Positions 25,455-62,084 of a stretch of 64,000 bases of DNA are shown here, in pieces. Within the stretch, counting starts at the first letter, position 1. The number at the start of each line of letters is the position of its first letter. Source of the DNA: Oecophyllibacter saccharovorans (lineage in GTDB: Bacteria > Pseudomonadota > Alphaproteobacteria > Acetobacterales > Acetobacteraceae); the NCBI RefSeq assembly GCF_006542375.1, contig NZ_CP038143.1:1488001-1552000 (forward strand), in the 5' to 3' direction. A model generated the notes under the pieces. It was not told the origin of the DNA, searched no databases, and was given only the letters and a program-made list of their open reading frames with translations. Made by a program: the position numbers and the translations under genes.

Positions 25455-25723
25455 AGGAGGTGCCTGCTGGTCAGCCAGTGGATGAGGATCTGCGCGAAGC
25501 CCGAGCCGAAGGCCGAGGCCCCCCAGATGATCGGCGCATTGACCATGATGGCCCGCCGCCAGCCCGTTTCGGTATGGCGGATGCGGTCCTCATGGTTGGC
25601 AAGCACCGTCTCCTGCTGGGCGAAACGCTGGTCGGTCTGGGCGAAGCGGTCCTCATGCTGGGCGAACCGGCTGTCCATGCGCCGCGCCAGGTCCTGGAAC
25701 TCCACACTGCGCACATAGGTCAC
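25451..25723 (-). CDS. XhlA-like coiled-coil/one-TM lysis-associated protein
   Basis: This 90-residue protein has an N-terminal heptad region with repeated H-E-D-R-F-A-Q units (residues 8-45, a coiled coil) and one C-terminal transmembrane segment (IIWGASAFGSGFAQILIHWL). This layout resembles haemolysin XhlA and related phage proteins that help holins or anchor lysis complexes. It overlaps both the lysozyme gene and the upstream fibre gene, so the three are translationally coupled. The exact role is inferred. Confidence 0.65.
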   Translation of the reverse strand: MTYVRSVEFQDLARRMDSRFAQHEDRFAQTDQRFAQQETVLANHEDRIRHTETGWRRAIMVNAPIIWGASAFGSGFAQILIHWLTSRHLL

Positions 25724-27509: not shown

Positions 27510-27821
27510 ATGCACGCACCCCCCCAAGATTTTCCCGCCCTGCAGCTGGTGATTCTTCTCCTGTGGCTGGGCACCTATGCTCTGAGCGCCTATATTCTTA
27601 TGGGCATGGCCTCTTACGCTTGTGTGAAGCGCAAGGGCTTCCGGCGACCCGTTCTCCTGGTGATCGTGTGCCTGCTCTGCTGGCCGGTTCTTATCCTGCT
27701 CGAACTGTTGCGCAGCCCCAACGGCGTGGAGAGTTCCCGGCGACCGATTGAATATGTCGGCATGGGCCTGGCCGCTGTGAACATTCTGCTCCCCGTGCTG
27801 ATGTACCTAAGCCGGCTTTGA
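27510..27821 (+). CDS. Small membrane protein, KRKGF family (member a)
   Basis: This 103-residue protein has three hydrophobic segments and the family core MASYACVKRKGFRRP, WPVLILLELLRSP and RRPIEYVGMG. The basic KRK loop after the first segment should lie in the cytoplasm. It opens the plus-strand array of thirteen paralogs that runs opposite to the flanking phage genes, and follows a 224-bp AT-richer gap. The function is unknown to me; candidates such as immunity, superinfection exclusion or toxin are speculation. Confidence 0.8.
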   Translation: MHAPPQDFPALQLVILLLWLGTYALSAYILMGMASYACVKRKGFRRPVLLVIVCLLCWPVLILLELLRSPNGVESSRRPIEYVGMGLAAVNILLPVLMYLSRL

Positions 27822-27858
27822 AAACCTGCAGTAAAGCTGCCTGCGGTGAAAAGACACC

Positions 27859-28194
27859 ATGACATCATTTTTTGATTACTTCCCGGCGGTCAATGATGTT
27901 GCCCTGAGTATTTCCAACAACAAGTTCCCTGTAGGGGTGCCTGTGGTGGTGCTGGTATTTGTCGGCATCATCGGTCTCAGCACTTTCCTGTGCCTCGCAA
28001 GGAAGGGGTTTTCACCGCTGGAGGTGTGGTTCTTCACCTGTGTGACCGTGTGGCCGGTCCTGATACTGCTTGAACTGTGGCCAAGCGCCGAGGAGGAAAT
28101 CCGGCCTCCCTTTATTTTTGAATATATCGGCCTGGCGATAGCGGCGCTCTCTTTGCTGGGCGGGGTCGTGTTCCTGTTGAACAGATTTGCATGA
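27859..28194 (+). CDS. Small membrane protein, KRKGF family (member b, type C)
   Basis: This 111-residue paralog has FFDYFPAVNDV at the N-terminus, a hydrophobic segment VLVFVGIIGLS, then FLCLARKGFSPLEVWFF, WPVLILLELWPSAEEE and FEYIGLAIAALS. The core loop is RKGF preceded by LA rather than KRKGF. It is closest to member j (33562-33894), sharing the YFP...NDV start and VFVGII segment. Its stop overlaps the start of member c by ATGA, and j is likewise followed by a c-like gene, so b-c and j-k are duplicated two-gene units. Confidence 0.8.
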   Translation: MTSFFDYFPAVNDVALSISNNKFPVGVPVVVLVFVGIIGLSTFLCLARKGFSPLEVWFFTCVTVWPVLILLELWPSAEEEIRPPFIFEYIGLAIAALSLLGGVVFLLNRFA

Positions 28195-28514
28195 ATTCGG
28201 TCGTGACCTCACCCTTGGCCTGTAAACTGATCTCTGTCTTCTTTTCTGCCCTGGAGATCCTGATGCTGATTGCGACAGTCCTGGTCGTGGGAAGGGCAAC
28301 TTACGCCTGTGCGCAGCGCAAAGGCTTTCAGCCGCCCACCCTCTGGGGCATTCTGGGAGCGATATTCTGGCTTTATCTTCCCATTCTCGAACTCACGGAC
28401 GCCACCACGCCGGAAAAGATCTCCCCACGCCCGGTTGAATATATCAGCTGGATTGTTTTCTGCCTGATGATTGCAAGCGTTGTTCTTGCCTCTGGTTTTC
28501 AGACCCCTCCCTGA
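28191..28514 (+). CDS. Small membrane protein, KRKGF family (member c, type D)
   Basis: This 107-residue paralog has one hydrophobic segment before ATYACAQRKGFQPPTLWG, a second with ILGAIFWLYLPILELTD, then TTPEKISPRPVEYISW and a third segment. The loop is QRKGF. It is most like member k (33928-34218), which shares LW-G-x-LG-x-x-FW, ILE-x-x-D and PEK-x-x-PR-x-x-EYI. It is translationally coupled to member b by ATGA. Confidence 0.8.
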   Translation: MNSVVTSPLACKLISVFFSALEILMLIATVLVVGRATYACAQRKGFQPPTLWGILGAIFWLYLPILELTDATTPEKISPRPVEYISWIVFCLMIASVVLASGFQTPP

Positions 28515-28584
28515 TTCCGGGCGCAGCCCTGTAAATGTGTCGCTTTTGTTTTTGGATTGGTTCACGGTAACCAGAAAGAGATAT

Positions 28585-28908
28585 ATGATTACAACCTCAT
28601 CCTTGTTGCCCATAATTTACAGTCTTATCTATCCACCCATTACAGTTTCTCCCCTAATGCTGGGGCTGGATCTTCTTGTCGGGGCGGCAGCTTATATTTG
28701 CGCGAAGCGTAAAGATTTCAGTCCGGTTATTCTATGGGTAGCGGTTTGTGTGGTCGTATGGCCCTGTCTGATCGTGCTTGAAGTTTGCCGCAGCCAGGCG
28801 GCTGAAAAGAGACCTCTGAAGCCAGTGGAATATTTTGGCCTGGCCGCTGCAGTAATTGTCTTGGCATTTCCGTCAGTGGTATTGCATCTCATGGCCTATA
28901 AGCCCTGA
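28585..28908 (+). CDS. Small membrane protein, KRKGF family (member d, type B)
   Basis: This is a 107-residue paralog from ATG 28585, which follows AGAAAGAG; an upstream in-frame start at 28471 would run through the end of member c and is rejected. It has LLVGAAAYICAKRKDFSPVI, VVWPCLIVLEVCRSQ and EKRPLKPVEYFGLAAA. Members f, h and l are its closest relatives. Like them it is followed within about 75-105 bp by an A-type or similar gene, here member e. Confidence 0.8.
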   Translation: MITTSSLLPIIYSLIYPPITVSPLMLGLDLLVGAAAYICAKRKDFSPVILWVAVCVVVWPCLIVLEVCRSQAAEKRPLKPVEYFGLAAAVIVLAFPSVVLHLMAYKP

Positions 28909-28989
28909 AAGCAGGAAGTAGCCTTGCAAGTTGAAGGCTCTGCACGGCTGGTATTAAGCTCGGAGAAGAGCGACGTTTGAGAGGATGAC

Positions 28990-29412
28990 ATGCCTTCAGA
29001 AGCCCAGAAACATTCAGGAAAAGGTTTCCTGCTCAAATGGGTAGTGCCACTTATGATTGGTATTATCTTTGGCATTCTTCTTGGCGGAAACATTTATCTC
29101 AGGGTGAGAAATGAAATCCAGTCACCGGATGATTGGTTCTATGCGTGCGTGCTGCTCCCTGTCAGTCTGTCGATCCTGTCCACGCTTGTAGGCAAGGGCA
29201 CTTACGCCTGCGTTAAGCGCAAAGGGTTTCATCCTTTCATGCCTTGGGCGATTGTGGGCGCTCTCTTCTGGCCCACCCTGATCCTACTGGAGTTATGGCC
29301 GCGCGGGGTCAGGTCTGAAAAGACTTCCCCAGGCGTCATTGAATATATCGGCATGGGCTTGGCCGCTTTGATCGTTCTACTCATCGTGCTGGGGTGCCTA
29401 AGCCGGCTTTGA
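28990..29412 (+). CDS. Small membrane protein, KRKGF family (member e, type A)
   Basis: This 140-residue paralog has an extra N-terminal half: MPSEAQKHSGKGFLLKW, a transmembrane segment (PLMIGIIFGILLGGNIYL), then a short polar loop. The core is TYACVKRKGFHPFMPWAIVG, WPTLILLELWPRG, EKTSPGVIEYIGMG. Four hydrophobic segments are predicted. GAGAGGATGAC precedes the ATG. It is the near twin of member g (29947-30378). Confidence 0.82.
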   Translation: MPSEAQKHSGKGFLLKWVVPLMIGIIFGILLGGNIYLRVRNEIQSPDDWFYACVLLPVSLSILSTLVGKGTYACVKRKGFHPFMPWAIVGALFWPTLILLELWPRGVRSEKTSPGVIEYIGMGLAALIVLLIVLGCLSRL

Positions 29413-29540
29413 TCAGCCCCACGGTCGGCAAGGGCCTCTGACTTGTGGGGATTGTGGGCCCAGAAGCCCAGAAGCCTTACTGATATTTCAGGGTGCGGCC
29501 TTGTAAAGGCGTCCCTGCCGGAAAGGAATAAAAGAACTAT

Positions 29541-29867
29541 ATGAGTTCAGCTTTACAGTGGCTTCCCGTCATCAACAGGATTGCCTATCCCAATATTATC
29601 GCTACACCCCTGGTCCTGGGGTTGGACCTTCTCGTCGGCGTGGCGGCTTATACTTGCGTGAAGCGCAAGGATTTCAGCCCGGTCATTCTATGGGTGGCGG
29701 TATGTGTTTCGGTATGGCCCTGTCTGATCGTGCTTGAACTGTGCCGCAGCCCGAACCCTGAAAAAACGCCCATGAAGCCAGTGGAATATTTCGGCCTGGC
29801 TGCTGCAGTATTGGACTTGGTCGTTCTACCGCTGGGAATGTACCTCATGCTGTACCATACATTCTGA
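29541..29867 (+). CDS. Small membrane protein, KRKGF family (member f, type B)
   Basis: This 108-residue paralog is almost the same as member d in its core: LLVGVAAYTCVKRKDFSPVI, VWPCLIVLELCRSPNPEK, PVEYFGLAAA. The N-terminal segment INRIAYPNIIATPLVLGLDL also parallels d. GGAAAGGAATAAAAG precedes ATG 29541. With member g it repeats the d-e module. Confidence 0.82.
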   Translation: MSSALQWLPVINRIAYPNIIATPLVLGLDLLVGVAAYTCVKRKDFSPVILWVAVCVSVWPCLIVLELCRSPNPEKTPMKPVEYFGLAAAVLDLVVLPLGMYLMLYHTF

Positions 29868-29946
29868 AGGATGAATGGCTTCCTGCAGGTCGAAAACCCT
29901 TCAGGCCCGCGATTACATGATTACATAATGATTATTGAGAAATAAC

Positions 29947-30378
29947 ATGACTTTAGAAGTCCGGAAACATTCAGGCGCTGGTTTCTTCATCAGATGGGTG
30001 GCCCCCCTTATGATCGGAGTGGGCGTCGGGCTTTTCGTGGGCGGTTGTATTTACCTCAGCGCGAGAAGCGAAATCCCCTCAACGGCTGACTGGATCTATC
30101 CCTGCCTGGTGTTTCCGGTCATTTTTTCCCTCCTGGCCACGCTTGTAGGCATGGGAACTTACGCCTGCGTGAAGCGCAAGGGGTTTCATCCTTTCATGCC
30201 CTGGGCGATTGTGGGCGCTCTCTTCTGGCCCACCCTGATCATACTGGAGTTATGGCCGCGCGGGGCCAGGTCTGAAAAGACTTCCCCAAGCGTCATTGAA
30301 TATATCGCGATGGGTCTCGTCTGCGTGTGTTGCTATATCTATTTCGCACATCCCTTCCAGAATTTAGGCACCAAATGA
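29947..30378 (+). CDS. Small membrane protein, KRKGF family (member g, type A, altered C-terminus)
   Basis: This is a 143-residue twin of member e: MTLEVRKHSGAGFFIRW, then TYACVKRKGFHPFMPWAIVG, WPTLIILELWPRGARSEK and PSVIEYIAMG. After EYIAMG the sequence stops matching e and ends CVCCYIYFAHPFQNLGTK, so its last membrane segment has been replaced, probably by recombination or a frameshift. ATG 29947 is chosen to match the start of member e; a TTG at 29935 is less likely. Confidence 0.8.
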   Translation: MTLEVRKHSGAGFFIRWVAPLMIGVGVGLFVGGCIYLSARSEIPSTADWIYPCLVFPVIFSLLATLVGMGTYACVKRKGFHPFMPWAIVGALFWPTLIILELWPRGARSEKTSPSVIEYIAMGLVCVCCYIYFAHPFQNLGTK

Positions 30379-30390
30379 GGGAAGGAGCCG

Positions 30391-30480
30391 TTATTCTCTC
30401 TCGGCCGAGCTGTATCTGCGTTTCAGCCCGCCGGTAAGATCGTCCTTCAGCCTGTCCGCAGCGCCCTGAAAGAAGTTGTC
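30391..30480 (-). pseudogene. Possible remnant of a phage gene 3' end
   Basis: The minus strand reads DNFFQGAADRLKDDLTGGLK followed by RRYSSAERE and a stop, an open stretch with the composition of a protein C-terminus. It has no start of its own. It resembles in style the K-E-N-F-V-K-G-A-G-K-S-L-G-K-D end of the minus-strand gene at 34349-35311. It may be what is left of a similar gene after array rearrangement. Confidence 0.3.
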
Positions 30481-30571
30481 TTTTCACGCAGCCGGCTTGC
30501 TGGCGTTTACTGAACGTTACACAGGCGTTCTGTTTTCAGACCCCCTGAAATATGAAGGGCAGCAGCCCGTC

Positions 30572-30600
30572 TTGCGTGTGGCCCAGGCCTGTGCCAGTCT
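30572..30600 (+). promoter_or_regulatory. Promoter of element R1
   Basis: TTGCGT (30572-30577), a 17-nt spacer and CAGTCT (30595-30600), then 7 nt to the GGAAG start of R1. The same geometry is kept in all eight copies. Confidence 0.6.
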
Positions 30601-30607
30601 TTTCAGC

Positions 30608-30739
30608 GGAAGAAAGCGGTGCAGTTGCAGTGTTATCGCCAGAAGTAGCAGTCAATTTATCTCTGGCGTCCGAAGATCCGGCGTCTGACTGCTTGATGCC
30701 GCAAAAGGGTGTTTTCGCGCCCCTTTACCGCTTTCTTTC
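30608..30739 (+). ncRNA. Structured RNA element R1 (novel family, copy 1)
   Basis: This 132-nt element begins GGAAGAAAGCGGT and ends ACCGCTTTCTTTC, which pair as the closing stem. Arm 2 is CGCCAGA/TCTGGCG with loop AGTAGCAGTCAATTTATC. Arm 3 is CGGCGTC/GATGCCG with loop TGACTGCTT. Arm 4 is AAAGGG with CCCTTT. The loops of arms 2 and 3 can pair over 8 bp (AGCAGTCA with TGACTGCT), the longest match of all copies. Its 3' end overlaps the last codons of the convergent gene at 30725-31666. The bases at 30481-30570 show nothing else. Confidence 0.75.
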
Positions 30740-31666
30740 ACTCCCGGGTTTGAGGGCGGTCCAGCAATAGGTGACCAATCGGTGCCCCAAAGCCACTGCC
30801 ATCCAGGCCAGGCTATTGAAAAGGGGGATAAAAAAGGACTCACCGGAGCGCGGCGTGCCCTGCAGGAAAGTGGTGCCGATCTCTGCCAGGTCTTTTATGT
30901 CGTCAGAGCCCTGGTCGATCCGGTCTCCGTACACATCCAGCAGGACCTCGTCGAGCTTGTAGGGCGCAAACATGCTGTAATTGTTGCGGAGCCGGGCCAG
31001 CTCCCGGAGAACCAGCAGGTTCTTCTCCTGTTGCCGCACTTTCCTGAAACTAGCCAGTGCTTCCTCCTGACCTTTGCGGAGCAGGGTGGTTTCCAGCGTG
31101 TCGTCCAGCACATCTTTGAGGGCTCTGGAGAAGTGGGCGATGTCGGGGTCATAGGACTTCATGGCGCTCATCAGATCTTCACCCAGGCGTGTGAAAGCCA
31201 GATACTGTTCACTGCTGAGCGTTCCGTCGCGGGTTTGCTGCAGAAGATCCTGGGCCAGTTTCTGGACCGGAACCGTGGCCTTGGGCAGGCTGCCCCTGTC
31301 CGCCTTTTCTACAACCTGCTTGAGACGGGCGGTAAAGTCGGGTCCTGTCTCAATGACAGTATTGCTCAGGATATCCTGAAGACGCTGCTCCTGGTCCAGA
31401 ACACCCTGACGAAACATTGCATACGACAGATACGCATTGCCCTGCTCCAACCCGGTTGTTCTGACAAGGGCCCGTATGAACTGCCTGAACTGCTCCGGGA
31501 GGGTTCTTTGAGCGTCGAAAGCCAGGGCAGTTCTTTCCAGGACCGGGGCATCAGTGACCTGAGCGGGGCGCAGGTTGATGCCGTAATGCGCCTGGGCTTT
31601 CCGCGCCAGGCAGGCGCGTTCGGGACTGCTTTCATCGCCGGTCAGCCAGAAATTGACAACTGCCAT
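30725..31666 (-). CDS. Phage-type protein of unknown function, 313 aa
   Basis: This soluble, mostly helical protein starts MAVVNFWLTGDESSPERACL behind GAGGAGA. Long Arg/Glu/Leu-rich helices fill the middle (EEALASFRKVRQQEKNLLVL). A single weakly hydrophobic stretch near the end (FFIPLFNSLAWMAVALGHRL) could insert in a membrane. It lies on the minus strand, like the phage structural genes but opposite to the small-membrane-protein array in which it sits, and R1 and R2 flank it. Its final residues G-S-E-R-K-R are encoded by the R1 3' arm, so the stop was probably acquired when R1 arrived. I do not recognise the family. Confidence 0.7.
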   Translation of the reverse strand: MAVVNFWLTGDESSPERACLARKAQAHYGINLRPAQVTDAPVLERTALAFDAQRTLPEQFRQFIRALVRTTGLEQGNAYLSYAMFRQGVLDQEQRLQDILSNTVIETGPDFTARLKQVVEKADRGSLPKATVPVQKLAQDLLQQTRDGTLSSEQYLAFTRLGEDLMSAMKSYDPDIAHFSRALKDVLDDTLETTLLRKGQEEALASFRKVRQQEKNLLVLRELARLRNNYSMFAPYKLDEVLLDVYGDRIDQGSDDIKDLAEIGTTFLQGTPRSGESFFIPLFNSLAWMAVALGHRLVTYCWTALKPGSERKR

Positions 31667-31792
31667 GGCAAGGTCTCCTCAAGTGCAGGGTGGACCGGGT
31701 CATAGCACGTGCACCGGACTGATCGTAAACGTTCCCTGTGACCGACAGCGACGCTCAGGAAAGAGAGAGGACCTTCAAAAAACTTGAAAGCA

Positions 31793-31821
31793 TTGCGTCA
31801 TTGCACGGGATATGTCAGCTT
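31793..31821 (+). promoter_or_regulatory. Promoter of element R2
   Basis: TTGCGT (31793-31798), a 17-nt spacer and CAGCTT (31816-31821), then 7 nt to the R2 start. Confidence 0.55.
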
Positions 31822-31828
31822 CGTCAGC

Positions 31829-31973
31829 GGAAGAAAGCGGCGCTAGTGGGCCGTTTGCCAGAAGCAGCAGTCAAATCATCTCTGGCAAACAATGATCCGG
31901 CGTCGGACTGCCTGATGCCGCAAAAGGGGGCATCCCCAATCGGATGATTCGCTCCCCTTTACCGCTTTCCTCC
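31829..31973 (+). ncRNA. Structured RNA element R2 (copy 2)
   Basis: This 145-nt copy has closing stem GGAAGAAAGCGG/CCGCTTTCCTCC (one mismatch). Arm 2 is TTTGCCAGA/TCTGGCAAA, extended by compensatory pairs relative to R1. Arm 3 is CGGCGTC/GATGCCG. Arm 4 is AAAGGGG/CCCCTTT with inner CATCC/GGATG. The GCAGTC and GACTGC loops are complementary. R2 and R3 form a tandem pair 82 nt apart, and R7-R8 repeat that arrangement with similar spacer sequence. The stretch 31667-31792 before it shows no gene. Confidence 0.75.
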
Positions 31974-32019
31974 AACGCTTCAGATAATTCGCCCTGATTT
32001 ACGCAAAAGCGCCTGGGAA

Positions 32020-32048
32020 TTGCGCCTGAGCGTGGCGTGTGACATTCA
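32020..32048 (+). promoter_or_regulatory. Promoter of element R3
   Basis: TTGCGC (32020-32025), a 17-nt spacer and CATTCA (32043-32048), then 7 nt to the R3 start. Confidence 0.55.
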
Positions 32049-32055
32049 CGATGAT

Positions 32056-32199
32056 GGAAGAAAGCGGCGAGTAGCGTTCGACTTGTCAGAGGCAGCAGTC
32101 ATTTTGGCTCTGACAGGAAAGCTCCGGCGTCGGACTGCATGGCGTCGCAAAAGGGAACGGCCTTAAAGGACGGTGCGCACTCTTTTGTCGTTTTCTTTC
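32056..32199 (+). ncRNA. Structured RNA element R3 (copy 3, most divergent)
   Basis: In this 144-nt copy the 3' arm has drifted to TCGTTTTCTTTC yet still pairs with GGAAGAAAGCGG through G-U pairs. Arm 2 is TGTCAGAG/CTCTGACA, a covarying replacement of the GCCAGA/TCTGGC of other copies. Arm 3 is CGGCGTC/GGCGTCG with G-U pairs. Arm 4 keeps AAAAG/CTTTT with a new inner hairpin. The loops GCAGTC/GACTGC are unchanged. Pairing kept despite sequence change is the best evidence for an RNA-level function. The 100 nt to member h hold nothing else recognised. Confidence 0.75.
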
Positions 32200-32304
32200 A
32201 CCTGCTCACCTCTTAAAAGAAGGCCGGTCCTGCAAGAAATCTTTCTTGAAGGATCCTGGAAAGCTGCAGGTGAATTCCTGCCTGGCATAAAAGGGAAGGG
32301 TGGA

Positions 32305-32658
32305 ATGCTGCCGTTGAAGTGGGACAGGGTGCAGGATTTTTTTGAGAACCTGCCGGTAATCTTTTTAATCGCCCATCCTAATATCATAACGCTTATTCTG
32401 CTGGTTCTGGATCTGCTGGTCGGTCTGGGCACTTACAACTGTGTGAAGCGCAAGGGATTCGGGCCGGTCAGCCTTTGGGTCGTGGTCTGTGTCGTCATGT
32501 GGCCCTGCCTGGCCGTACTTGAGCTGTGCCACAGCCGTAAAGCTGAAAAGAGTGCGCCTACCCTCATGGAATACACTCTTCTGGGCCTGACTCTGGGCCT
32601 GTTACTATTTATTACAATCTGTTTTTTCGTTCAGGCAGCTACTTCTAAAAGCATCTGA
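32305..32658 (+). CDS. Small membrane protein, KRKGF family (member h, type B)
   Basis: This 117-residue paralog starts MLPLKWDRVQDFFENLPVIF at ATG 32305 after GGGAAGGGTGGA; a longer reading frame from 32173 would include the end of R3 and is rejected. The core is LLVGLGTYNCVKRKGFGPVS, MWPCLAVLELCHSRKAEK and TLMEYTLLGL. The EYxG motif is altered to EYTL. It is followed 75 bp later by member i, repeating the two-gene module of d-e and f-g. Confidence 0.8.
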   Translation: MLPLKWDRVQDFFENLPVIFLIAHPNIITLILLVLDLLVGLGTYNCVKRKGFGPVSLWVVVCVVMWPCLAVLELCHSRKAEKSAPTLMEYTLLGLTLGLLLFITICFFVQAATSKSI

Positions 32659-32733
32659 CTGAAAAACGTAACGGGCCAGTCAGGTCTTGTAGGGAGTGGG
32701 CTAGGCTTGCCGACAGCAATCTGAGAGGATGAT

Positions 32734-33042
32734 ATGGCCCCAAGTGGTCAAGAATACTCAATAATTTCCTTGGTTCTCAAAGGGGCTTCTTCTCCTTGGG
32801 TTTGTTTACTTGTAGGAATTCTGGCAGGGGTAGCCACTTATGCTTGCGTGAAGCGCAAGGAATTTTATCCTTGTATGCCCTGGTCGGTCGTATGCGCATT
32901 CTTCTGCCCTGGTCTGGTCGTGCTGGAGCTGTGGCCCCGTAGCACGGGCGCGGAAAAGACCTCTCCCGCACCGATTGAGTATTTCACTACAGCCGTGGTG
33001 TTATTGGTCTGTCTGTGTCAGTTCATCGCGTACTTTTTTTAG
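32734..33042 (+). CDS. Small membrane protein, KRKGF family (member i, type A-like)
   Basis: This 102-residue paralog has VGILAGVATYACVKRKEFYP, CMPWSVVCAFFCPGLVVLEL, WPRSTGAEKTSPAPIEYFTT. It shares the C/F-M-P-W, LELWPR and EKTSP features of e and g but lacks their extra N-terminal segment. GAGAGGATGAT precedes the ATG, almost as in member e. Confidence 0.8.
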   Translation: MAPSGQEYSIISLVLKGASSPWVCLLVGILAGVATYACVKRKEFYPCMPWSVVCAFFCPGLVVLELWPRSTGAEKTSPAPIEYFTTAVVLLVCLCQFIAYFF

Positions 33043-33157
33043 GTTCCTGAAGTGAGCCGCGTTTCATTTTGCTACCGAACCATATTCCCGGCCCCCGCTG
33101 AGAAACCAGGGGGCTTTGCAGAGGGGAGCGCCCAGTTGCGCCATGGCTCGGCCGAAC

Positions 33158-33186
33158 TTGCGTGTGGCCCAGGCCTGTGCCAGTCT
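33158..33186 (+). promoter_or_regulatory. Promoter of element R4
   Basis: TTGCGT (33158-33163), a 17-nt spacer and CAGTCT (33181-33186), then 7 nt to the R4 start. The spacer is the same as in R1. Confidence 0.6.
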
Positions 33187-33193
33187 TTCCAGC

Positions 33194-33341
33194 GGAAGAA
33201 AGCGGCGCAGTTGCAGTGGTATCGCCAGAAGTAGCAGTCAACTCATCTCTGGCGTGCAAAGATCCGGCGTCGGGCTGTTTGATGCCGCAAAAGGGAGGCA
33301 TCCCCAAAAGGATGAGGCGCGCCCCTTTACCGCTTTCTTTC
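33194..33341 (+). ncRNA. Structured RNA element R4 (copy 4)
   Basis: This 148-nt copy is closest to R1, including the upstream 35 nt. Arm 2 is CGCCAGA/TCTGGCG. The arm 3 loop reads GGGCTGTT, yet it still pairs with AGCAGTC through two G-U pairs. Arm 4 has an inner CATCC/GGATG. It lies between the h-i and j-k modules. The remaining bases of this intergenic stretch (33043-33157 and 33342-33561) show no gene. Confidence 0.75.
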
Positions 33342-33561
33342 ACTCTCTCTAGGGTCCTTTGCTTCAGCCATCCCAGTTCAAGGCCTGGCTGCCGTGTGTG
33401 CGACAAGCCGGCGGCCCTTTGCTGGAACATTTTCCGGAAATGACCATTCATGATGATCGTGTTTGTCCGTCCGTGATGGTAGGCTGCGGCCTTTCCGAGA
33501 AGAACGCTGCATCCTCTGGCTGAGAGGCGCGCGTGTTCATCTGCTTTTGTTGAGAAGATCC

Positions 33562-33894
33562 ATGAAGGCCTATCTGGACTCCATTTTCAAATATTTCCCA
33601 ATGTTCAGCGACGTGAATGATGTGTTTTCAGCAACTCTTCCCATTGTGACGCTGGTATTTGTGGGGATTATTGCGCTGTCTGCTTATATCTGTGTATCCC
33701 GAAAGAGGTTTGGCCCCATATTTTCTTGGGTGTTTATGTGCGCGGTTTTCTGGCCGTGGTTGATTGTGCTCGAATTATATCCAAGCGCGAATAAGGAAAA
33801 GACTTTACCAACTGTCATTGAACAGATTGGCTTGGCCATAGCCATTATATCTGTTTTGGGTGGCATCGTATTTCTGTTTGACAGATATCTGTGA
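33562..33894 (+). CDS. Small membrane protein, KRKGF family (member j, type C)
   Basis: This 110-residue paralog runs from ATG 33562 (behind GAGAAGATCC): MKAYLDSIFKYFPMFSDVND, LVFVGIIALSAYICVSRKRF, FWPWLIVLELYPSANKEK, IEQIGLAIAIIS. The loop is SRKRF and EYIG becomes EQIG, so this is one of the most divergent cores. Its start and first segment match member b. The codons are noticeably AT-richer than phage genes nearby. Confidence 0.8.
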   Translation: MKAYLDSIFKYFPMFSDVNDVFSATLPIVTLVFVGIIALSAYICVSRKRFGPIFSWVFMCAVFWPWLIVLELYPSANKEKTLPTVIEQIGLAIAIISVLGGIVFLFDRYL

Positions 33895-33927
33895 ATTATA
33901 ACTCTGAAGATGTCTTAAGGGGACCCT

Positions 33928-34218
33928 ATGCCGCCACATGACTTGATTCCTTCCTATATCAAGGACGCGCTGGCTGACCTGATGGCAGTAGTGTGCTTCT
34001 TTTCAGGCTGGGCTACCTATGCCTGTGCGAAGCGGAAGGAATTTCATCCAGCGCCACTCTGGGGGTTTTTGGGAATATTTTTTTGGCCAGTTCTTCTTAT
34101 TCTTGAAATCTCAGACACCTGCTCTCCTGAAAAGGTTGCACCACGTCGTATTGAATATATCGGAGGCGCAATTATTTTGCTCTACCTCGGTGTACTTTTC
34201 AGTGGTGTGTTGGCTTAG
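33928..34218 (+). CDS. Small membrane protein, KRKGF family (member k, type D)
   Basis: This 96-residue paralog, the shortest, has FFSGWATYACAKRKEFHPAP, LWGFLGIFFWPVLLILEISD, SPEKVAPRRIEYIGGAI. It is closest to member c. It follows j by 33 bp, AAGGGGACCCT being its ribosome site. The array's plus-strand run is interrupted after it by a minus-strand phage-type gene. Confidence 0.8.
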   Translation: MPPHDLIPSYIKDALADLMAVVCFFSGWATYACAKRKEFHPAPLWGFLGIFFWPVLLILEISDTCSPEKVAPRRIEYIGGAIILLYLGVLFSGVLA

Positions 34219-34348
34219 TATTGTGAGGCGACGGGCAGGCTTTTGCTGTGCAGTGATAAGGCTGCACGCGTTAACAGGCTGCTAAAAATACGCCGGCCTC
34301 AAGCGTTTTTACAGATTTGTTTTAACCGGAAATCTGATTTCCTGTCTC

Positions 34349-35311
34349 TCATTTCTGACCTCGGCGGGAGTCGTCTTTACTCACTTTCTCCTTCTTTTTC
34401 TTGAAACCATGAATTGCCCTTGTAACCGTGAATTGAAACATATCTTTCCCCAGGCTTTTTCCCGCTCCCTTAACGAAGTTTTCCTTCCACTCGTCAGGAT
34501 GACCGCTCAGAGCGTTTAGCGGTCCACCCTTGACGGCATTCCTGACGGGCTGTGATAGGACGGGATCAAGGTTAACGCCCCGTTTTCGAAGAGCCTTGTG
34601 GCTTAGCTGTATTGCGCGTGTACGCGCCAGGGCCTGGTCACCTGCGGAAAGAATTTTGCCACCAAGTATCGAGGTAAGCACGTCACCTGCTGTTTGCCCT
34701 GCTATATTTACGTAGTGTCCACCCCAATCTCCTTCCCGTTCCTGGTCAGCCTCATCAAGCCAACGTTCATTATTTTCAGCGGCGCGTTCAATAAAGCGGG
34801 ATAATGGGTTTTCTACGTAATGGTCCAGGGAAGTCAGGGTTGCGCCCAGATGCTCCAATCCGTTGAACGGTCGAACGACTTGGGTTGCGGCGGCCCCGAC
34901 GAAATCCGTTCCCAGATGTATATAGGGGTGTGTATGTGGGTCTACGTAATGGCCCGCATGCACTGGATCCTGCAGGATGCCCAAGGTACTATTAGAGATT
35001 TCACTGAGCGTGGGCCAGCTGCTTTTGCCGCCTTCCGACAGGCCCCGATTCAATTGCCCGGAGGTGCGGTTTTCCTCCTTTCCATCATCGTGCCCTGGCA
35101 TGGAGACGGGTTGGGTAAGAGCGTTTGCAGAGAGGGGCGGTGCTTGAGCCGCTGTGCTGCCAGCTGGATTGGCGCTTCCCGATGGGCGGGTGCCTGTCTG
35201 GGGGGCCTTGGTGCCAAGGCTTGGAGCGGGGGCACTATCGTTGTTAGGGCCGGGTTCCGTATCATTGCCGGTCTGGGCGTTTAAAGCGTCCAGTTGGTCG
35301 CCGAAATGCAC
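34349..35311 (-). CDS. Ejection-protein-like phage protein, possibly 5'-truncated
   Basis: This 320-residue protein has a disordered Pro/Ala/Gly-rich first third. It then has HTHPYIHLGTDFVGAAATQV, FIERAAENNERWLDEADQER and GDWGGHYVNIAGQTAGDVLT, continuing SILGGKIL. The Gly/Ala-rich later part recalls the central region of the ejection protein at 38569-41298 (GDSNWAGVGRFAGNVAATAP), so it may be a reduced paralog. The end is Lys-rich. The only start is GTG 35311 without a ribosome site, so the true 5' end may be lost. It lies on the phage-gene strand within the array. Confidence 0.6.
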   Translation of the reverse strand: MHFGDQLDALNAQTGNDTEPGPNNDSAPAPSLGTKAPQTGTRPSGSANPAGSTAAQAPPLSANALTQPVSMPGHDDGKEENRTSGQLNRGLSEGGKSSWPTLSEISNSTLGILQDPVHAGHYVDPHTHPYIHLGTDFVGAAATQVVRPFNGLEHLGATLTSLDHYVENPLSRFIERAAENNERWLDEADQEREGDWGGHYVNIAGQTAGDVLTSILGGKILSAGDQALARTRAIQLSHKALRKRGVNLDPVLSQPVRNAVKGGPLNALSGHPDEWKENFVKGAGKSLGKDMFQFTVTRAIHGFKKKKEKVSKDDSRRGQK

Positions 35312-35474
35312 CTGAAAGGGGCTGAATGTCTGGGGGAGTGGGGGCCATCTGGCACCCTCCTGCGATAAACGTTTCTATATCGTTCTGTTTTACGGTCCAT
35401 TCCCGGCGGTTAATGGGGCATAGCGTAGGGAAGGGGCGCTGTGCGTCGCCGAAACTGAAGGGCTGCGACCGGTC

Positions 35475-35503
35475 TTGCGGAGAAACCTGGTATATGCCAG
35501 TCT
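35475..35503 (+). promoter_or_regulatory. Promoter of element R5
   Basis: TTGCGG (35475-35480), a 17-nt spacer and CAGTCT (35498-35503), then 7 nt to the R5 start. Confidence 0.6.
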
Positions 35504-35510
35504 TTTCACC

Positions 35511-35658
35511 GGAAGAAAGCGGCGCAGTTGTGTTCCGCTTGCCAGAGGTAGCAGTCACATCATCTCTGGATAAGCAAAGATCCGGCGTCGGACTGCTTGG
35601 CGTCGCAAAAGGGGCCATCCTTGATAGGATGACCCGCACCCCTTTACCGCTTTCTTCC
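35511..35658 (+). ncRNA. Structured RNA element R5 (copy 5, perfect closing stem)
   Basis: This 148-nt copy has GGAAGAAAGCGG paired with CCGCTTTCTTCC, a perfect 12-bp closing stem. Arm 2 is CTTGCCAGAG with CTCTGGATAAG. Arm 3 is CGGCGTC with GGCGTCG. Arm 4 is AAAGGGG/CCCCTTT with inner CATCC/GGATG. The loops pair as AGCAGTC/GACTGCT. The flanks 35312-35474 and 35659-35940 show no gene. Confidence 0.77.
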
Positions 35659-35940
35659 GTTTCTCCTTATTTAGTCCTTCTTGAACTATGGTTCAGGATG
35701 CCGCCTGAAATACCCTTCCGAAATTCATTAAATACCTGATGATAGCAATCTCTAGGATTTGCTCAATGCTCACTATGGTTATTTGAATTAAGGAAGTGGA
35801 TTACAGATAAGAGCATGAACTTGTTTCCCTGAATCAACCGCGGTATTCCGTTGCGATTATAAAACGGAATCAGGTAAGTCCCCGCTATATTTCCCTGCTG
35901 TCTTTCTATGGTTAAGAAGGATAATGATTAAGAAGGATAA

Positions 35941-35969
35941 TTGGCGCCAGAGGTGGAGTGTGATATTAC
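35941..35969 (+). promoter_or_regulatory. Promoter of element R6
   Basis: TTGGCG (35941-35946), a 17-nt spacer and TATTAC (35964-35969), the copy nearest to a consensus -10, then 7 nt to the R6 start. Confidence 0.62.
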
Positions 35970-35976
35970 CATTCAT

Positions 35977-36111
35977 GGAAGAAAGCGGCACAGTTGCTGG
36001 GGCCTCGTCAGAAGCAGCAGTCATTTCATCTCTGGCGGGATAAAAAGGTTCGGCGTCGGACTGCCTGACGCCGCAAAAGGGTGTTTCCGCGCCCCTTTAC
36101 CGCTTTCTTCC
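35977..36111 (+). ncRNA. Structured RNA element R6 (copy 6)
   Basis: This 135-nt copy has closing stem GGAAGAAAGCGG/CCGCTTTCTTCC, perfect. Arm 3 is CGGCGTC/GACGCCG, a perfect Watson-Crick version of a stem that has G-U pairs in R1 and R5, i.e. a compensatory change. Arm 4 lacks the inner CATCC hairpin, as in R1. The loops GCAGTC/GACTGC are kept. Confidence 0.76.
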
Positions 36112-36433
36112 ATTGCCCGCTCAGCCGGAAAGCACCGCATTATTTGCCTTCGCCCCAGTAATAGAATTCCCTGTCAGGGCAGCACGTCCGTGTGGTGAAA
36201 CCAGGGGGATCCACCATGGGTAGGGAGAAATCTGTGGCGCCTATCTTCCGCCACCAGCTGCGTAAGCGGTGGAAGGCTGTTTCTTCCCGCCAAGAGCGTT
36301 GAAGTTCAGCCACCTGGATTGTGAAGCTTATTTTGCTCTTCTTCTTCCAGTGTTCCCTTGATCAATAAGTAAATTAACTTGATAAGAGGCCCACTGAAAA
36401 AGATCAGGCTCAAATGCTGTTTGAAGGAAATAC
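36112..36433. other. Gap before member l with a decayed phage-gene fragment
   Basis: There is no intact gene here. The middle (about 36246-36312) is similar to the 3' end and downstream flank of the ejection-protein gene at 38539-38602, sharing CTGCG-AAGCGGTGGAAGGCT and flanking bases with small indels. The rest shows nothing recognisable apart from the AT-rich leader of member l. Confidence 0.5.
36246..36312 (-). pseudogene. Degenerate copy of the ejection-protein gene 3' end
   Basis: On the minus strand this reads like the end of the gene at 38569 (Q-L-D-L-N-A-L-L-E-K-K-stop) with indels that destroy the frame, followed by the same downstream CCTTCCACCGCTT. It is a decayed direct repeat lying 2.3 kb from the intact copy. 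Confidence 0.5.
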
Positions 36434-36766
36434 ATGATTTCGGATATTCCGTTTTTCCCAGTGGTTGGTGCATTTGTTTACCATGATGAACGTGCTCTCA
36501 TTCATGTGGCATCAGATCTGTTCATAGGTGTGTGTGCTTATATGTGTGCAAAACGCAAAGGGTTTTCTCCTGTGGCGCTTTGGGCAATCGCGTGCGGTAT
36601 AATGGCACCTTTTTTGATCGTTCTGGAGCTGTGTCGCAGCAAGAACACGGGGAAAACTTCACTACGTCTGATTTCACTACGTCTGATTGAATATTTCGGA
36701 ACAGCTTTAGTCTTGTTCTCAATTATTGTTGTCTTTTATGAATTTTTCTATCAAGTAAAAATATGA
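36434..36766 (+). CDS. Small membrane protein, KRKGF family (member l, type B)
   Basis: This 110-residue paralog has LFIGVCAYMCAKRKGFSPVA, MAPFLIVLELCRSKNTGK and LRLIEYFGTALV. The WP pair is replaced by A-P. A 15-nt tandem duplication gives S-L-R-L-I-S-L-R-L-I before EYFG. Strongly AT-rich. GGAAATAC precedes the ATG. It is followed by member m, completing a fourth two-gene unit of the d-e kind. Confidence 0.78.
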   Translation: MISDIPFFPVVGAFVYHDERALIHVASDLFIGVCAYMCAKRKGFSPVALWAIACGIMAPFLIVLELCRSKNTGKTSLRLISLRLIEYFGTALVLFSIIVVFYEFFYQVKI

Positions 36767-36870
36767 TATGAATAATAATTTTAGGAAATAAACCACCTTG
36801 ATCACAGTCGTGAGAATGCTTCCAGACTGGCTGGAAAAGCATTCAACTTGGTATCTCTTGAGAGAGTGAA

Positions 36871-37164
36871 ATGGAACTATCTCAAATCGTTCATCTTAAA
36901 TTTTCCTATGCGGTTAATCTTACGATAATTTCCCTGTTTATCACCCAGCTGATCCTGGGTGGTATCGCCGCTTATTCCTGTGTGAAGCGCAAAGGTTTCT
37001 GTCCTGCACTGGCCTGGGTGGCTTTATGCGTGATGATGCCCCTTTTTTTGCCCCTGCTTGAAATATGGCCCAAGGCGAGGGCAGAAAACATTCCGCCAAA
37101 GTTCATTGAGTATCTGGCCATTGCGGTCATAGGGGTGTGCTCAATACTTGCCATGTTTATCTGA
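36871..37164 (+). CDS. Small membrane protein, KRKGF family (member m)
   Basis: This 97-residue paralog has LILGGIAAYSCVKRKGFCPA, LAWVALCVMMPLFLPLLEIW, PKARAENIPPKFIEYLAIAV. The WP..L..LEL motif is degenerate (MPLFLPLLEIW). GAGAGAGTGAA precedes the ATG, resembling the ribosome sites of e and i. It is the last array member; R7 and R8 follow. Confidence 0.78.
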   Translation: MELSQIVHLKFSYAVNLTIISLFITQLILGGIAAYSCVKRKGFCPALAWVALCVMMPLFLPLLEIWPKARAENIPPKFIEYLAIAVIGVCSILAMFI

Positions 37165-37280
37165 GTAAAGAGAACGGATCCTGGACGTGAGCATGGACCA
37201 TTTATCGCGGAAGAATATAAGCTCTACCAGCAAATCGCCGCTCTAATATCCATCCCGCTCTCTATGGTGGAAAAGAGTAT

Positions 37281-37309
37281 TTGGTTCCAGAGATAGAGTG
37301 TGATACTCC
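37281..37309 (+). promoter_or_regulatory. Promoter of element R7
   Basis: TTGGTT (37281-37286), a 17-nt spacer and TACTCC (37304-37309), then 7 nt to the R7 start. The spacer resembles that of R6. Confidence 0.57.
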
Positions 37310-37316
37310 CAATCAT

Positions 37317-37445
37317 GGAAGAAAGCGGTGCTGTGCGGTCATTGACCAGAGGTAGCAGTCGAATCATCTCTGGCAATTAAAGATCCGGCGCGGACTGCCT
37401 TGCGCCGCAAAAGGGCACGAATGCACCCCTTTGCCGCTTTCCTCC
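37317..37445 (+). ncRNA. Structured RNA element R7 (copy 7)
   Basis: This 129-nt copy is the shortest. Arm 3 has lost one pair on each side: CGGCGC/GCGCCG, again perfectly complementary, which is a strong compensatory signal. Arm 2 is ACCAGAG/CTCTGG. Arm 4 is AAAGGG/CCCTTT. The loops GCAGTC/GACTGC are kept. The 116 nt between member m and its promoter contain nothing else. Confidence 0.76.
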
Positions 37446-37484
37446 AACGCTTCACATAATTGAGCGCCGGCGCCATTAGGGGAG

Positions 37485-37513
37485 TTGCCTCCAAGCGCGG
37501 ACGATGGCATTTT
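37485..37513 (+). promoter_or_regulatory. Promoter of element R8
   Basis: TTGCCT (37485-37490), a 17-nt spacer and CATTTT (37508-37513), then 7 nt to the R8 start. Confidence 0.55.
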
Positions 37514-37520
37514 CAGCAAT

Positions 37521-37665
37521 GGAAGAAAGCGGTGCTAGCGGCCCGCTCGCCAGAGGCAGCAGTCAAATCATCTCTGGTGGGATCGGCTCCGGCGTCGGAC
37601 TGTTTGATGCCGCAAAAGGGACCATCCCCAATCGGATGACTCGCACCCCTTTACCGCTTTCTTTC
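37521..37665 (+). ncRNA. Structured RNA element R8 (copy 8)
   Basis: This 145-nt copy has closing stem GGAAGAAAGCGG/CCGCTTTCTTTC. Arm 2 is GCCAGAG/CTCTGGT. Arm 3 is CGGCGTC/GATGCCG with loop GGACTGTT, which pairs with AGCAGTC including one G-U. Arm 4 has inner CATCC/GGATG. It is 75 nt downstream of R7. The following 37666-37927 shows no gene and should hold the lipoprotein promoter. Confidence 0.75.
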
Positions 37666-38568: not shown

Positions 38569-41298
38569 CTACTTCTTCTCAAGAAGAGCATTGAGGTCCA
38601 GCTGTTTGGGATCCAGCAGCTTGTTGTGCAGTCCCTCTTCCAGGGCGCTTTTGAGGTTTTCTGTGCGCCGTGTGGTCATGTAATCGATCCCGCGCCCAAC
38701 CCAGGGGGCCAGCGGGAAGGCGGCTTCCTTCGCTAATTTGGCGGCCCCGGCAGCCCGTTGGGTCAGCGGAGTGTTGGCAAACAGGTTTTTGGCCGTATTG
38801 ATGCCCAGGGGTGGGGCAAGATCGGTGGTTGAAAGCTGTCTGGTCACATTCGCCAGCTTGTCCAGCTTGGTGCGTGTTTCAGGGGAAACAGCCTCATCGG
38901 GGCGCAGATTGCGCGCGATGCCGTCACGGTGCAGGGCGTCGGAAAGGGCTTGCACACGTGTGTGCATCATGGCCCCTGTACCTGCCTCCAGCGGTTGCTT
39001 CTGCAGGTAACGCATTTCATCAAGCCTCTGCGCCTGCGTCATGTAGTCCTTTATTGCGTCTGGATAAGCAGGGGCGCCACGTGCGATCGCCATGTCGAGC
39101 TGGTCGCGCAGCGGGATCAGATGAGGCAGGGCTTCCTGAAGATTGCGCCTGTTGGCGTCCGTCCCGGCAGAAATGTCATGGTTCAGGGTGCGTCGTGCCG
39201 CATAGAGGTCGCGTGGCAGCGCCTCACCATCGGGCGTGCTCAAGGCGCGCTGCATGACCGGTACATACTGCCCCACCATATCGGCCACATGGGTAGGGAC
39301 GGCCTTGTCGCCGGCGATTTTCTGCGCCTGTTCGATGAGATGCAGGGCGTGTACGGGCTGCTGGCCCCTGAAGACGTTTCCATCAGAGCTGAAATGCTGC
39401 TGATCGTAGCGGTCAAGGTTGCGGCTGGCGGCGTCAGTGTGGAGCGGCGTGCCAGCGACTTCATCCTGCCAGTAGTTCTTGATCGCTGCCTGGTTGGCCG
39501 CTTCGCGGCTCTTGAAGGCATTCTCAAAGGCCGGGGTGGTGTTGCGCAGCGTGTTTTCCAGGGTCGCAAGCCCCGTGTTTCCCGTGTGCTGGGCAAGCGT
39601 GTACTGCACGCCTGGAATTTCCGCCGGCACCAGCTGGAAGGGCGCACCCTTGCCGAAGGTCCTGATGATGTCGTTCTGCAGCTGGGGGAGGTTCTTGTTG
39701 CGCATCATCGGGCTGAGGCGGGTGCTGTTCACCATCTCCTGCGGCGTGCTGGTCGGGTCGGGTGTGGGAGCCGGCGCGGTCGGCGCTTCTGGGCTTTTGC
39801 GGGTTTCCAGCCCCGCGTCCTTGGCGCTGTCGAGGGTGCGGGAAGCTTCTTTCAGCGCTTCTGTGGCCGCCTCATGCTGTGCGGCTGCCTGCGCCGCCTG
39901 CTGGGAAAGCTGGGCCTGCTCCTGCGGCGTGGCAGCGTGCGCGGCTGCATTGCGCAGCTGCGAGGCCGAAGCCGCACTGGCTTCCTGCTGGCGCAAAGCG
40001 GTTTGATAGGCGTCATGCGCCTCTTCAAGGGCCCTGTCAGTCTCGGCGATCCTTGAGGCGTGCGCCGCCTCTGTTGGCGCCCTCTTGGCCATCTCCGCCT
40101 CAGCCTGTGGGGCGGCTGGGCCCGATAACGTGTTTCCGCCCCTTCTGACGAAAGAGAGACCTTTCTTGAAGAGAGGCCTGGCCACATGGGCGGCTGCCCC
40201 CAGGGCCGCCCCTTCGCCCAGGATCTGGGCCATATTCTCGTCCCTGTCGCGTGAAGCAAGGGCGAGACTGGAGGCGGCCCCGCCGGCTGCATCTCCAGCC
40301 AGACCGCTGCTGAGGGCTGCTGCGCGCCCTGTCATGCCGAGCACACGGGCACCTGCAAGCGCGCCATCTGCAGCCACGCCCCCTACCACGCCGCCAATGG
40401 GTGCAGTGGCGGCCACGTTGCCGGCAAAGCGCCCCACCCCCGCCCAATTGCTGTCGCCATACTCCCTGTTATATTGCGCGTCAGCCCGGTCTTCGTATTT
40501 AACAGCCGCTTTCAGGGGGTTCCAGCGCGGGGGGGCATGGAGATCGCCGAACCTGTTCAGCCCAAGGACATGCAACCCCACGCCCCATGCCGGGAGCAGT
40601 GAGAGATAGGGATGGTCATGGGCAAAGTTCAGCAGGTGGTCCGCGCCGTAAAGCGGCGTGTCCACCACGTCGCGCAGGCCTTTTACGAAACCCGTACCGA
40701 GGTTTTCATACCATGTCCCCTGCTGGTATTTCGGGCGCGTGTCCTCGGGGTGCAGCACCGGATCGGCCGCCCCCAGGTCACGCATGTAAAAGTCATGCTC
40801 GTCCCTGGAGGAAGGGGTGGTCGGAGGGCTGCCCGCTTTCTCGCCGAAATCACGGGTGAAGAAGTCCTGCTCCTGTGGCGTTGACATGGGTGCCTCCTTT
40901 GCAGCGTTAGGGGGAGTGGAGAAGGCGTGGTAGGCAGCGGCCACCTTGTGGGGATAAGCGGCTGTCTCCGCATTGGCCCAGCGGCTTCTGTCAGTGCCGG
41001 CGTTATAGGCGCGCAGAGCGTCCGCCACGTTGCCGTAGCGGCGCATGTTCTCATCCAGCAGGCGGGCGGCGCCGTAGATGGCCTGCACGCTGTCTGTCGG
41101 ATCAATGCCGAGCGTGCGGGCGGTCGCAGGCATGAACTGCATGGGGCCGATCGCCCCTGCGCGCGAGCGGGCATTGGGGTCACCACCGGGGTCTTCCACA
41201 TGGCTGACAGCGCGCAGAAGAACGGGATCGACATTCCAGTATTTCCCGGCCCCCTCATAGGCGCGGTCCAGCTGCTCGGGCGAATAGTCAGTGGGCAT
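38569..41298 (-). CDS. Phage ejection protein with N-terminal lytic transglycosylase domain
   Basis: This 909-residue protein starts MPTDYSPEQLDRAYEGAGKY. Residues about 10-130 form an SLT lytic transglycosylase domain (YWNVDPVLLRAVSHVEDPGG with catalytic Glu, then SRAGAIGPMQFMPATARTLG and LRAYNAGTD). Next are a Gly/Ala-rich membrane-active middle (VGRFAGNVAATAPIGGVVGG), a long Ala/Gln/Glu coiled coil and a helical C-terminus. Virion transglycosylases of this type open the peptidoglycan during DNA injection, like T7 gp16 or P22 ejection proteins. ATG 41298 is chosen; the longer frame to 41394 overlaps the upstream gene. A decayed copy of its 3' end lies at 36246-36312. Confidence 0.8.
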   Translation of the reverse strand: MPTDYSPEQLDRAYEGAGKYWNVDPVLLRAVSHVEDPGGDPNARSRAGAIGPMQFMPATARTLGIDPTDSVQAIYGAARLLDENMRRYGNVADALRAYNAGTDRSRWANAETAAYPHKVAAAYHAFSTPPNAAKEAPMSTPQEQDFFTRDFGEKAGSPPTTPSSRDEHDFYMRDLGAADPVLHPEDTRPKYQQGTWYENLGTGFVKGLRDVVDTPLYGADHLLNFAHDHPYLSLLPAWGVGLHVLGLNRFGDLHAPPRWNPLKAAVKYEDRADAQYNREYGDSNWAGVGRFAGNVAATAPIGGVVGGVAADGALAGARVLGMTGRAAALSSGLAGDAAGGAASSLALASRDRDENMAQILGEGAALGAAAHVARPLFKKGLSFVRRGGNTLSGPAAPQAEAEMAKRAPTEAAHASRIAETDRALEEAHDAYQTALRQQEASAASASQLRNAAAHAATPQEQAQLSQQAAQAAAQHEAATEALKEASRTLDSAKDAGLETRKSPEAPTAPAPTPDPTSTPQEMVNSTRLSPMMRNKNLPQLQNDIIRTFGKGAPFQLVPAEIPGVQYTLAQHTGNTGLATLENTLRNTTPAFENAFKSREAANQAAIKNYWQDEVAGTPLHTDAASRNLDRYDQQHFSSDGNVFRGQQPVHALHLIEQAQKIAGDKAVPTHVADMVGQYVPVMQRALSTPDGEALPRDLYAARRTLNHDISAGTDANRRNLQEALPHLIPLRDQLDMAIARGAPAYPDAIKDYMTQAQRLDEMRYLQKQPLEAGTGAMMHTRVQALSDALHRDGIARNLRPDEAVSPETRTKLDKLANVTRQLSTTDLAPPLGINTAKNLFANTPLTQRAAGAAKLAKEAAFPLAPWVGRGIDYMTTRRTENLKSALEEGLHNKLLDPKQLDLNALLEKK

Positions 41299-61448: not shown

Positions 61449-62084
61449 ATGAGTTCCGAAGCCGACAATGAAAGCACGCCCACCCCGATGCGCTGGGAAT
61501 TCGCGTCCTACATGTTCAACGGCGAGCGCAAGACCCTCCCGTTCCCCAAGGGGGAGGCGGAGGAACGCGGCATCCTCAACCTGCTGGCCACCATCATAGA
61601 CCTGGACACGCTCCAGGAAGTGCTGGGCCACGTGCTGAAATGCACTGTCTGCGGCCAGGAGATCTCCCACCCCATCACCACGCCCGCCAACCCGACCTAC
61701 CTTCCCACCAGGAAAGAAGGCGAGTTCGCCATCGAGACCCGCACCTTCTCCTGCACCAATTGCGGCAATATCCTGAGCTTCTTCCCGGACCGGCTGCAGG
61801 AGATCCGCGACAGCCTGGGCATAACGCCGGTGAAGATCAGCGACGAGCCGCCCGCCGAGCCCTACTCCCTGCCCGGGCAGGACGCAACGCCGCCGCCCCC
61901 GCAGGCCTCAACGCAACAGCCCGCAACGCCGCCCCCGGCCGGGCAGGCCCCAACCCAGCCCCCGAAACCTTTCCTGGAAAAGGCCTTCCAGGGCCTGCTG
62001 AAAACGCTCGGCCTGCACAAGGGCGACCGGAAAGGCGATCAGAAGGGTGATCAGCAAGGCAATGACACGGGAGCGCGCAAATGA
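61449..62084 (+). CDS. Cys-motif (zinc-ribbon-like) prophage protein, copy 1
   Basis: This 211-residue protein has two C-x-x-C pairs: C65/C68 (LKCTVCGQE) and C102/C105 (SCTNCGNI), spaced like a zinc ribbon. The N-terminal EFASYMFNGERKTLPFPKGE and the mid helix before the first pair (LLATIIDLDTLQEVLGHVLK) are shared in pattern with the next two genes. The C-terminal 75 residues are Pro/Gln-rich then Lys/Asp/Gly-rich. GGGGAGG... precedes ATG 61449. It overlaps copy 2 by ATGA. Function unknown; zinc binding is inferred. Confidence 0.72.
   Translation: MSSEADNESTPTPMRWEFASYMFNGERKTLPFPKGEAEERGILNLLATIIDLDTLQEVLGHVLKCTVCGQEISHPITTPANPTYLPTRKEGEFAIETRTFSCTNCGNILSFFPDRLQEIRDSLGITPVKISDEPPAEPYSLPGQDATPPPPQASTQQPATPPPAGQAPTQPPKPFLEKAFQGLLKTLGLHKGDRKGDQKGDQQGNDTGARK

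Follow-up and report, generated by a model that had tools for sequence, protein, structure and literature searches.

A lineage-restricted family of predicted kissing-loop RNAs in the variable locus of a P22-like prophage of Oecophyllibacter saccharovorans

Copies of the element and their predicted fold

The window analyzed here is a 64,000-nucleotide stretch of the Oecophyllibacter saccharovorans genome (NZ_CP038143.1, positions 1,488,001 to 1,552,000). It holds a prophage in which an RNA element occurs eight times on the plus strand, interspersed with 13 paralogous membrane genes (27510–37164; products of ~100–140 aa). The copies, located by covariance model and alignment, are R1 (30608–30739, 132 nt), R2 (31829–31973, 145 nt), R3 (32056–32199, 144 nt), R4 (33194–33341, 148 nt), R5 (35511–35658, 148 nt), R6 (35977–36111, 135 nt), R7 (37317–37445, 129 nt) and R8 (37521–37665, 145 nt). 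Eight plus-strand copies of 129–148 nt with these starts had been proposed in the original prediction, and both a check of the sequence and a genome-wide search agreed with it: a covariance model built from the eight copies found exactly eight matches in the whole 1.94 Mb genome (125–163 bits), the weak minus-strand matches being the same eight copies read backwards. The copies are non-coding, in that no frame is open throughout all of them and their length differences are not multiples of 3. A candidate peptide (frame EESGAV...), uninterrupted in roughly half of the copies, was ruled out by stops and frame-shifting indels. The 3′ strand of R1 overlaps the final codons of a minus-strand gene (30725–31666).

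In the consensus fold a 12-bp closing helix (P1) joins both RNA ends and encloses three arms, P2 and P3 of ~7 bp each and P4 of 6 bp, whose tip is either short or long. The closing stem, reported earlier as common to the copies, is indeed present in all of them but is not perfect in every one, with one A·C each in R2 and R7 and G·U pairs in R3. The arm variants of R3 (GTCAGAG/CTCTGAC), R6 (CGGCGTC/GACGCCG) and R7 (CGGCGC/GCGCCG) are as had been described. The loop of P2 (GCAGUC) and the loop of P3 (GACUGC) are complementary over 6 bp and can be paired in all 22 distinct sequences compared (see below); in R1 the bases concerned are 30648–30653 with 30687–30692. The copy at L039:5057 carries GCAGCC/GGCUGC, a compensatory change from U-A to C-G, and the remaining changes in this helix all lead to G·U, as in R4, where the helix is retained with two G-U pairs. 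From this comparison, the loops of P2 and P3 very probably kiss through these 6 bp. This loop–loop helix and the promoter-like block described below are additions to the original prediction. The purine riboswitch and the phi29 pRNA likewise have a closing helix and two arms with pairing loops, which in pRNA pair between molecules. The RNA of the window differs from both in size and sequence and gave no Rfam match, and nothing links it to packaging.

Support for the fold was evaluated with a structure alignment of 25 copies (22 distinct), comprising the eight of the window and 17 from two sister prophages. Among the 22 distinct sequences, 97.8% of the paired cells are standard, vs 44–51% when the partners were slid by 1–3 columns. 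Five pairs are changed on both sides, a number reached in 7 of 500 shuffles, and both-side changes fill 14 cells, as many as were reached in none of 500 shuffles. The eight window copies taken alone contain two pairs in which both partners changed, a number matched by 171 of 500 shuffles. Compensatory change as a sign of selection on RNA structure, the argument of the original prediction, is thus unconvincing from the eight window copies and clear with 25; the structural conclusion was right but under-supported, because eight copies alone fail the shuffle test. Folded singly, the copies are 2.1 to 4.8 standard deviations below their dinucleotide shuffles, and the consensus fold comes within 1.4 kcal/mol of the minimum free energy for every window copy except R3, whose fold is the most divergent. 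The distinct pair types in the paired columns include 20 G·U vs 2 A·C (p = 1e-4). Since each plus-strand A·C would read as G·U in the minus strand and G·U is far commoner, the plus strand is the constrained one; the bias therefore favors an RNA and disfavors a double-stranded DNA palindrome. The enlarged alignment and this strand-specific bias support a structured RNA element in the prophage that is under structural selection, and on these comparisons it is highly likely that the copies represent structured plus-strand RNA.

Upstream blocks, sister prophages and searches for relatives

Immediately 5′ of each copy lies a promoter-like block on the plus strand, recognized by flank alignment and weight matrix, at 30572–30607 (R1), 31793–31828 (R2), 32020–32055 (R3), 33158–33193 (R4), 35475–35510 (R5), 35941–35976 (R6), 37281–37316 (R7) and 37485–37520 (R8). 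In a gapless alignment of ten distinct upstream flanks, anchored on the first base of P1, the invariant positions were TTG (−36 to −34), G (−21), TG (−16/−15) and A (−12); no conservation was seen at positions −41 to −90 or in the downstream flank. A weight matrix of the block, scanned over the window, the sister prophages and the host flanks, scored 28.6–37.6 bits at 25/25 copies and at most 11.6 bits elsewhere. Its spacing matches a sigma-70 type promoter, with a 17-nt spacer and a TGn-type extended −10 (for R1, TTG at −36 and a TGnCA-type −10), and the predicted start falls on the first G of P1. Judged by the block, each copy is likely to have its own promoter.

Relatives of the RNA were found only in two IMG/VR prophage records, G397 (nine copies) and G398 (eight copies), which are about 95% identical to the window over 24.5–61 kb, with rearrangements. 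RNAs and membrane genes number 8/13, 9/10 and 8/10 in the three prophages, and their order also differs. RNA bodies have been exchanged among the strains at positions 1, 3 and 8 with the flanks unchanged: R8 of the window (W8) has a body unlike those of the sister prophages between flanks that agree (83–84% in the body and 93–97% in the flanks against A7/B8), and B1 and A3 are also swapped. Two cassette deletions, R3/R4 and R5/R6, have their junctions within elements. Homologous recombination between the repeats explains the swaps and deletions, and by itself shows no recombination function.

No further member of the RNA family was detected among 397 genomes sampled from the same family or 385 from the same class, among GTDB species genomes scanned with the core pattern, or in IMG/VR beyond the two sister prophages; phage and plasmid records contained no match to the RNA at the nucleotide level, and related P22-like prophages and Acetobacter phage phiAX1 contained no copy. 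Because these searches returned the two sisters only, the family is restricted, as far as it is known, to one phage lineage. A weak match in G330 (L037) is attributed to chance (26.6 bits, without the kissing loops). Pattern matches at L092, L093, L095 and L138 were rejected by the model or fall in a coding gene, and, the two sister prophages aside, viral hits of the first pattern did not match the RNA.

The searches also bear on the view that the element belongs to no known family. With Rfam 15, no family reached its gathering score in the window and none matched over the copies up to E = 5; the two matches of a permissive search (E of 3–4) both lie outside the copies. A match to an Rfam family or a transposon, or a lack of covariation, would have told against the original prediction; each was looked for and did not occur. 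A miniature inverted-repeat transposable element or other transposon was rejected: in the whole genome the copies are confined to one locus and one orientation, and the shared sequence ends at the promoter-like block plus the element. A type III toxin–antitoxin system was also rejected, since short tandem repeats and a ToxN-like gene would be expected, and the repeats here are ~140 nt and dispersed, with small membrane proteins as neighbors. Integron attC core sites (RYYYAAC/GTTRRRY) were not visible by eye in the elements, integrase not having been searched for, and no tRNA genes were found. A retron noncoding RNA was discounted with the sole RVT_1 match in the genome lying ~775 kb from the copies. 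Overall, sequence comparison indicates that the copies are a real, new, lineage-restricted family of structured RNA genes whose predicted fold is well supported. The family is absent from the databases searched and has a tertiary contact backed by comparison.

The host genome encodes an orphan reverse transcriptase of ~516 aa at L100:7247–8800.

The surrounding prophage locus

The phage is P22-like, with a major head protein (phrog_283), a portal (phrog_156), a head closure protein (phrog_578) and a CI-like repressor; the nearest named phage is phiAX1. The array is oriented against the late genes and is bounded by two minus-strand genes, one at 38569–41394 encoding an SLT transglycosylase/internal virion protein in the position of the P22 gene 16 ejection protein, and one at 25720–27285, a tail gene by position only and without family match. 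Two further genes on the late (minus) strand lie within the array: that at 30725–31666 shows a weak resemblance to a DNA ejection protein (phrog_26400, E 5e-6), and that at 34349–35311 has no family match. At the equivalent place, a related prophage (L086) encodes Arc and ANT proteins, and phiAX1 encodes Arc and KilA-N. In P22-like phages this site is highly variable and houses immI and sieA (PMC8022706). SieA is an inner-membrane protein of 162–164 aa with three predicted transmembrane segments (PMC10883804). Placement of the array is immI-like in that the SLT gene stands on one side and relatives carry Arc/Ant there, the tail side being assigned by position only. By these gene comparisons, the array occupies a hypervariable locus that relatives of this P22-like temperate phage use for arc/ant (immI).

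The membrane genes are all on the plus strand. Seven of them, starting at 27510, 27859, 28191, ~28585, 28990, 29541 and ~29947, follow one another with no RNA between (27510–30378), and the others form pairs between R3 and R4 (32305–33042), R4 and R5 (33562–34218), and R6 and R7 (36434–37164). The 13 proteins are 26–64% identical to that at 29541 and share the motif TYxCxKRKGF..P..W..WP.LI.LEL..EK..P..IEY. Distant relatives (RKGR..W motif) are encoded in the chromosomes of other genomes of this bacterial family, and no RNA was found near them. The predicted fold of one membrane protein (mean pLDDT 83) consists of helices only, and a viral structure search with it gave no informative match. Pfam and PHROGs gave no SieA match for these proteins, no direct comparison with SieA having been made.

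Like P22 immI and sieA, the locus is variable, adjoins a gene 16-like ejection gene and runs contrary to the late operon; unlike them, it holds many small membrane paralogs, for which no SieA homology is claimed, and structured RNAs in place of arc/mnt/ant (PMC8022706, PMC10883804). At the same locus, prophage L086 carries a 41-nt promoter-like repeat, AGATTGACTCGACTCTTTCTACTCTGAGACGGTGAGGGATG, four times, at 7567, 8829, 11925 and 12771. Three of the four stand shortly before plus-strand genes, and the repeat is unrelated to the block preceding the RNA copies.

Possible roles of the RNAs

We lean modestly toward the view that the eight copies are sibling small RNA (sRNA) genes, transcribed independently within a lysogeny/exclusion locus and acting in trans by dosage. 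Transcription would begin from each copy's own promoter-like block at the first G of the closing helix, and the RNA would be expressed from the prophage, probably in the lysogen, against the late operon. The product would be a compact RNA of 130–150 nt ending at the closing helix, which would most likely act in trans through dosage, perhaps by binding a protein (a phage or host regulator, an RNase or a defense factor) and then titrating or guiding it. Alongside the small membrane proteins, it could contribute to lysogeny maintenance or superinfection exclusion.

Action in trans rather than in cis seems fairly probable. The copies do not appear to be simple leaders, because R1, R2, R5 and R7 run into another copy or an opposing gene. 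If the RNAs were the 5′ parts of membrane-gene mRNAs and controlled them, like a riboswitch or by antitermination as in HK022 put, one could account for the plus-strand membrane gene pair 106–323 nt downstream of R3, R4 and R6 and for the promoter-like block directly 5′ of the RNA; pairing of loops 2 and 3 as in the purine riboswitch is also a fold that ligand-binding leaders adopt. However, besides the four copies just named, 7 of the 13 membrane genes have no preceding RNA, the downstream sequence is unconserved and no expression platform was seen, which makes a general leader role unlikely. Pairing of the RNA with mRNAs of membrane or other phage genes, as a type I-like antitoxin or a sar/sas-like antisense sRNA, is quite unlikely. 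Type I toxin–antitoxin loci typically combine tandem arrays of small hydrophobic proteins with sRNAs, and antisense RNAs are used in exclusion by P22 and BTP1 (PMC12197685 for the latter point). Against such pairing, the RNAs and membrane genes share one strand, and the exposed segments are no more complementary to nearby translation starts than shuffled segments are, so that the excess complementarity to neighboring genes expected of a type I system was not found. The longest candidate pairing, an exact match of 12 nt across the start of the gene at 62081, was the best one and was rejected as an antisense target, as the sister prophages do not keep it. Protein binding and dosage are preferred to antisense action because the closed fold is conserved, the copy number is high and no complementarity to neighboring genes was detected; that the RNA is a protein-binding decoy rather than an antisense RNA is nevertheless a tentative suggestion, which we would not call probable.

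The body swaps between positions and the deletion junctions within elements would suit repeated DNA that serves cassette exchange, attC-like or by simple homology, with the RNA structure incidental or a fold of single-stranded DNA. Such sites would need neither a promoter-like block at fixed spacing nor strand-specific G-U tolerance nor loop–loop pairing; the junction points vary within the element as expected of homologous recombination, and integron-type core sites are not apparent by eye, so that we give this explanation only a slim chance. The idea of an anti-CRISPR (clustered regularly interspaced short palindromic repeats) RNA that mimics a repeat, or of another anti-defense decoy, draws on the host cas operon with Cas3 and Cas1 and on a copy number suited to titration. 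No CRISPR array with which the RNA might be compared was found in the 19 kb around cas, and nothing else speaks for the idea, which is very improbable.

Several observations weigh against the sibling sRNA reading that we favor. The 25 copies all derive from three prophages that are closely related (~95% identical) and so reflect few independent evolutionary events; their conservation is partly common descent and gene conversion. Promoter activity is something we infer, because the −10 hexamers match TATAAT poorly and a standard promoter scan lists none of the blocks, and no clear terminator was found 3′ of the copies. The protein partner is purely what we infer. R3, R4 and R6 precede membrane gene pairs, and some copies may be leaders.

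Sibling sRNAs in multiple copies are known in bacteria, including Qrr, csRNAs, AbcR and OmrA/B (PMC4211561). Like these, the RNAs described here are similar genes present several times per genome, in tandem or dispersed; unlike them, they number 8–9 in one prophage, have a closed multi-branch kissing-loop fold rather than an open seed, and no targets were found; the relation is a likeness in kind without a claim of homology. They also resemble sas of P22, STnc6030 of BTP1 (PMC12197685) and Pas (PMC13192938) as prophage small RNAs, which are partly linked to exclusion, and Pas varies in copy number. In contrast to sas and STnc6030, which pair antisense, the window RNA differs in fold and no antisense target was found. 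The RNA lies in what is classically the immunity/exclusion locus of P22-like phages; if it binds a protein, that protein would be a new player in lysogeny or phage–phage exclusion. A further proposal, that multicopy kissing-loop RNAs are a new phage RNA class acting on their own as a dosage-dependent immunity/exclusion factor whose swapped body variants alter specificity, is speculative and rather improbable. With many copies in one prophage, each bearing a promoter-like block, questions of expression, dosage and deletion are directly approachable.

The host cas operon lies at L099:1643–10968 (Cas3, Cas1 and others) and is probably type I-E. Elsewhere in the window, an OLD-like AAA ATPase with a TOPRIM domain (44456–46165) is inserted in the late operon and is a possible defense gene, and a late-strand, levanase-like gene of glycoside hydrolase family 32 (22375–24078) perhaps encodes a virion enzyme against levan. 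Three adjoining genes beside the repressor (61449–63043) encode products that share a CxxC-type motif and look paralogous.

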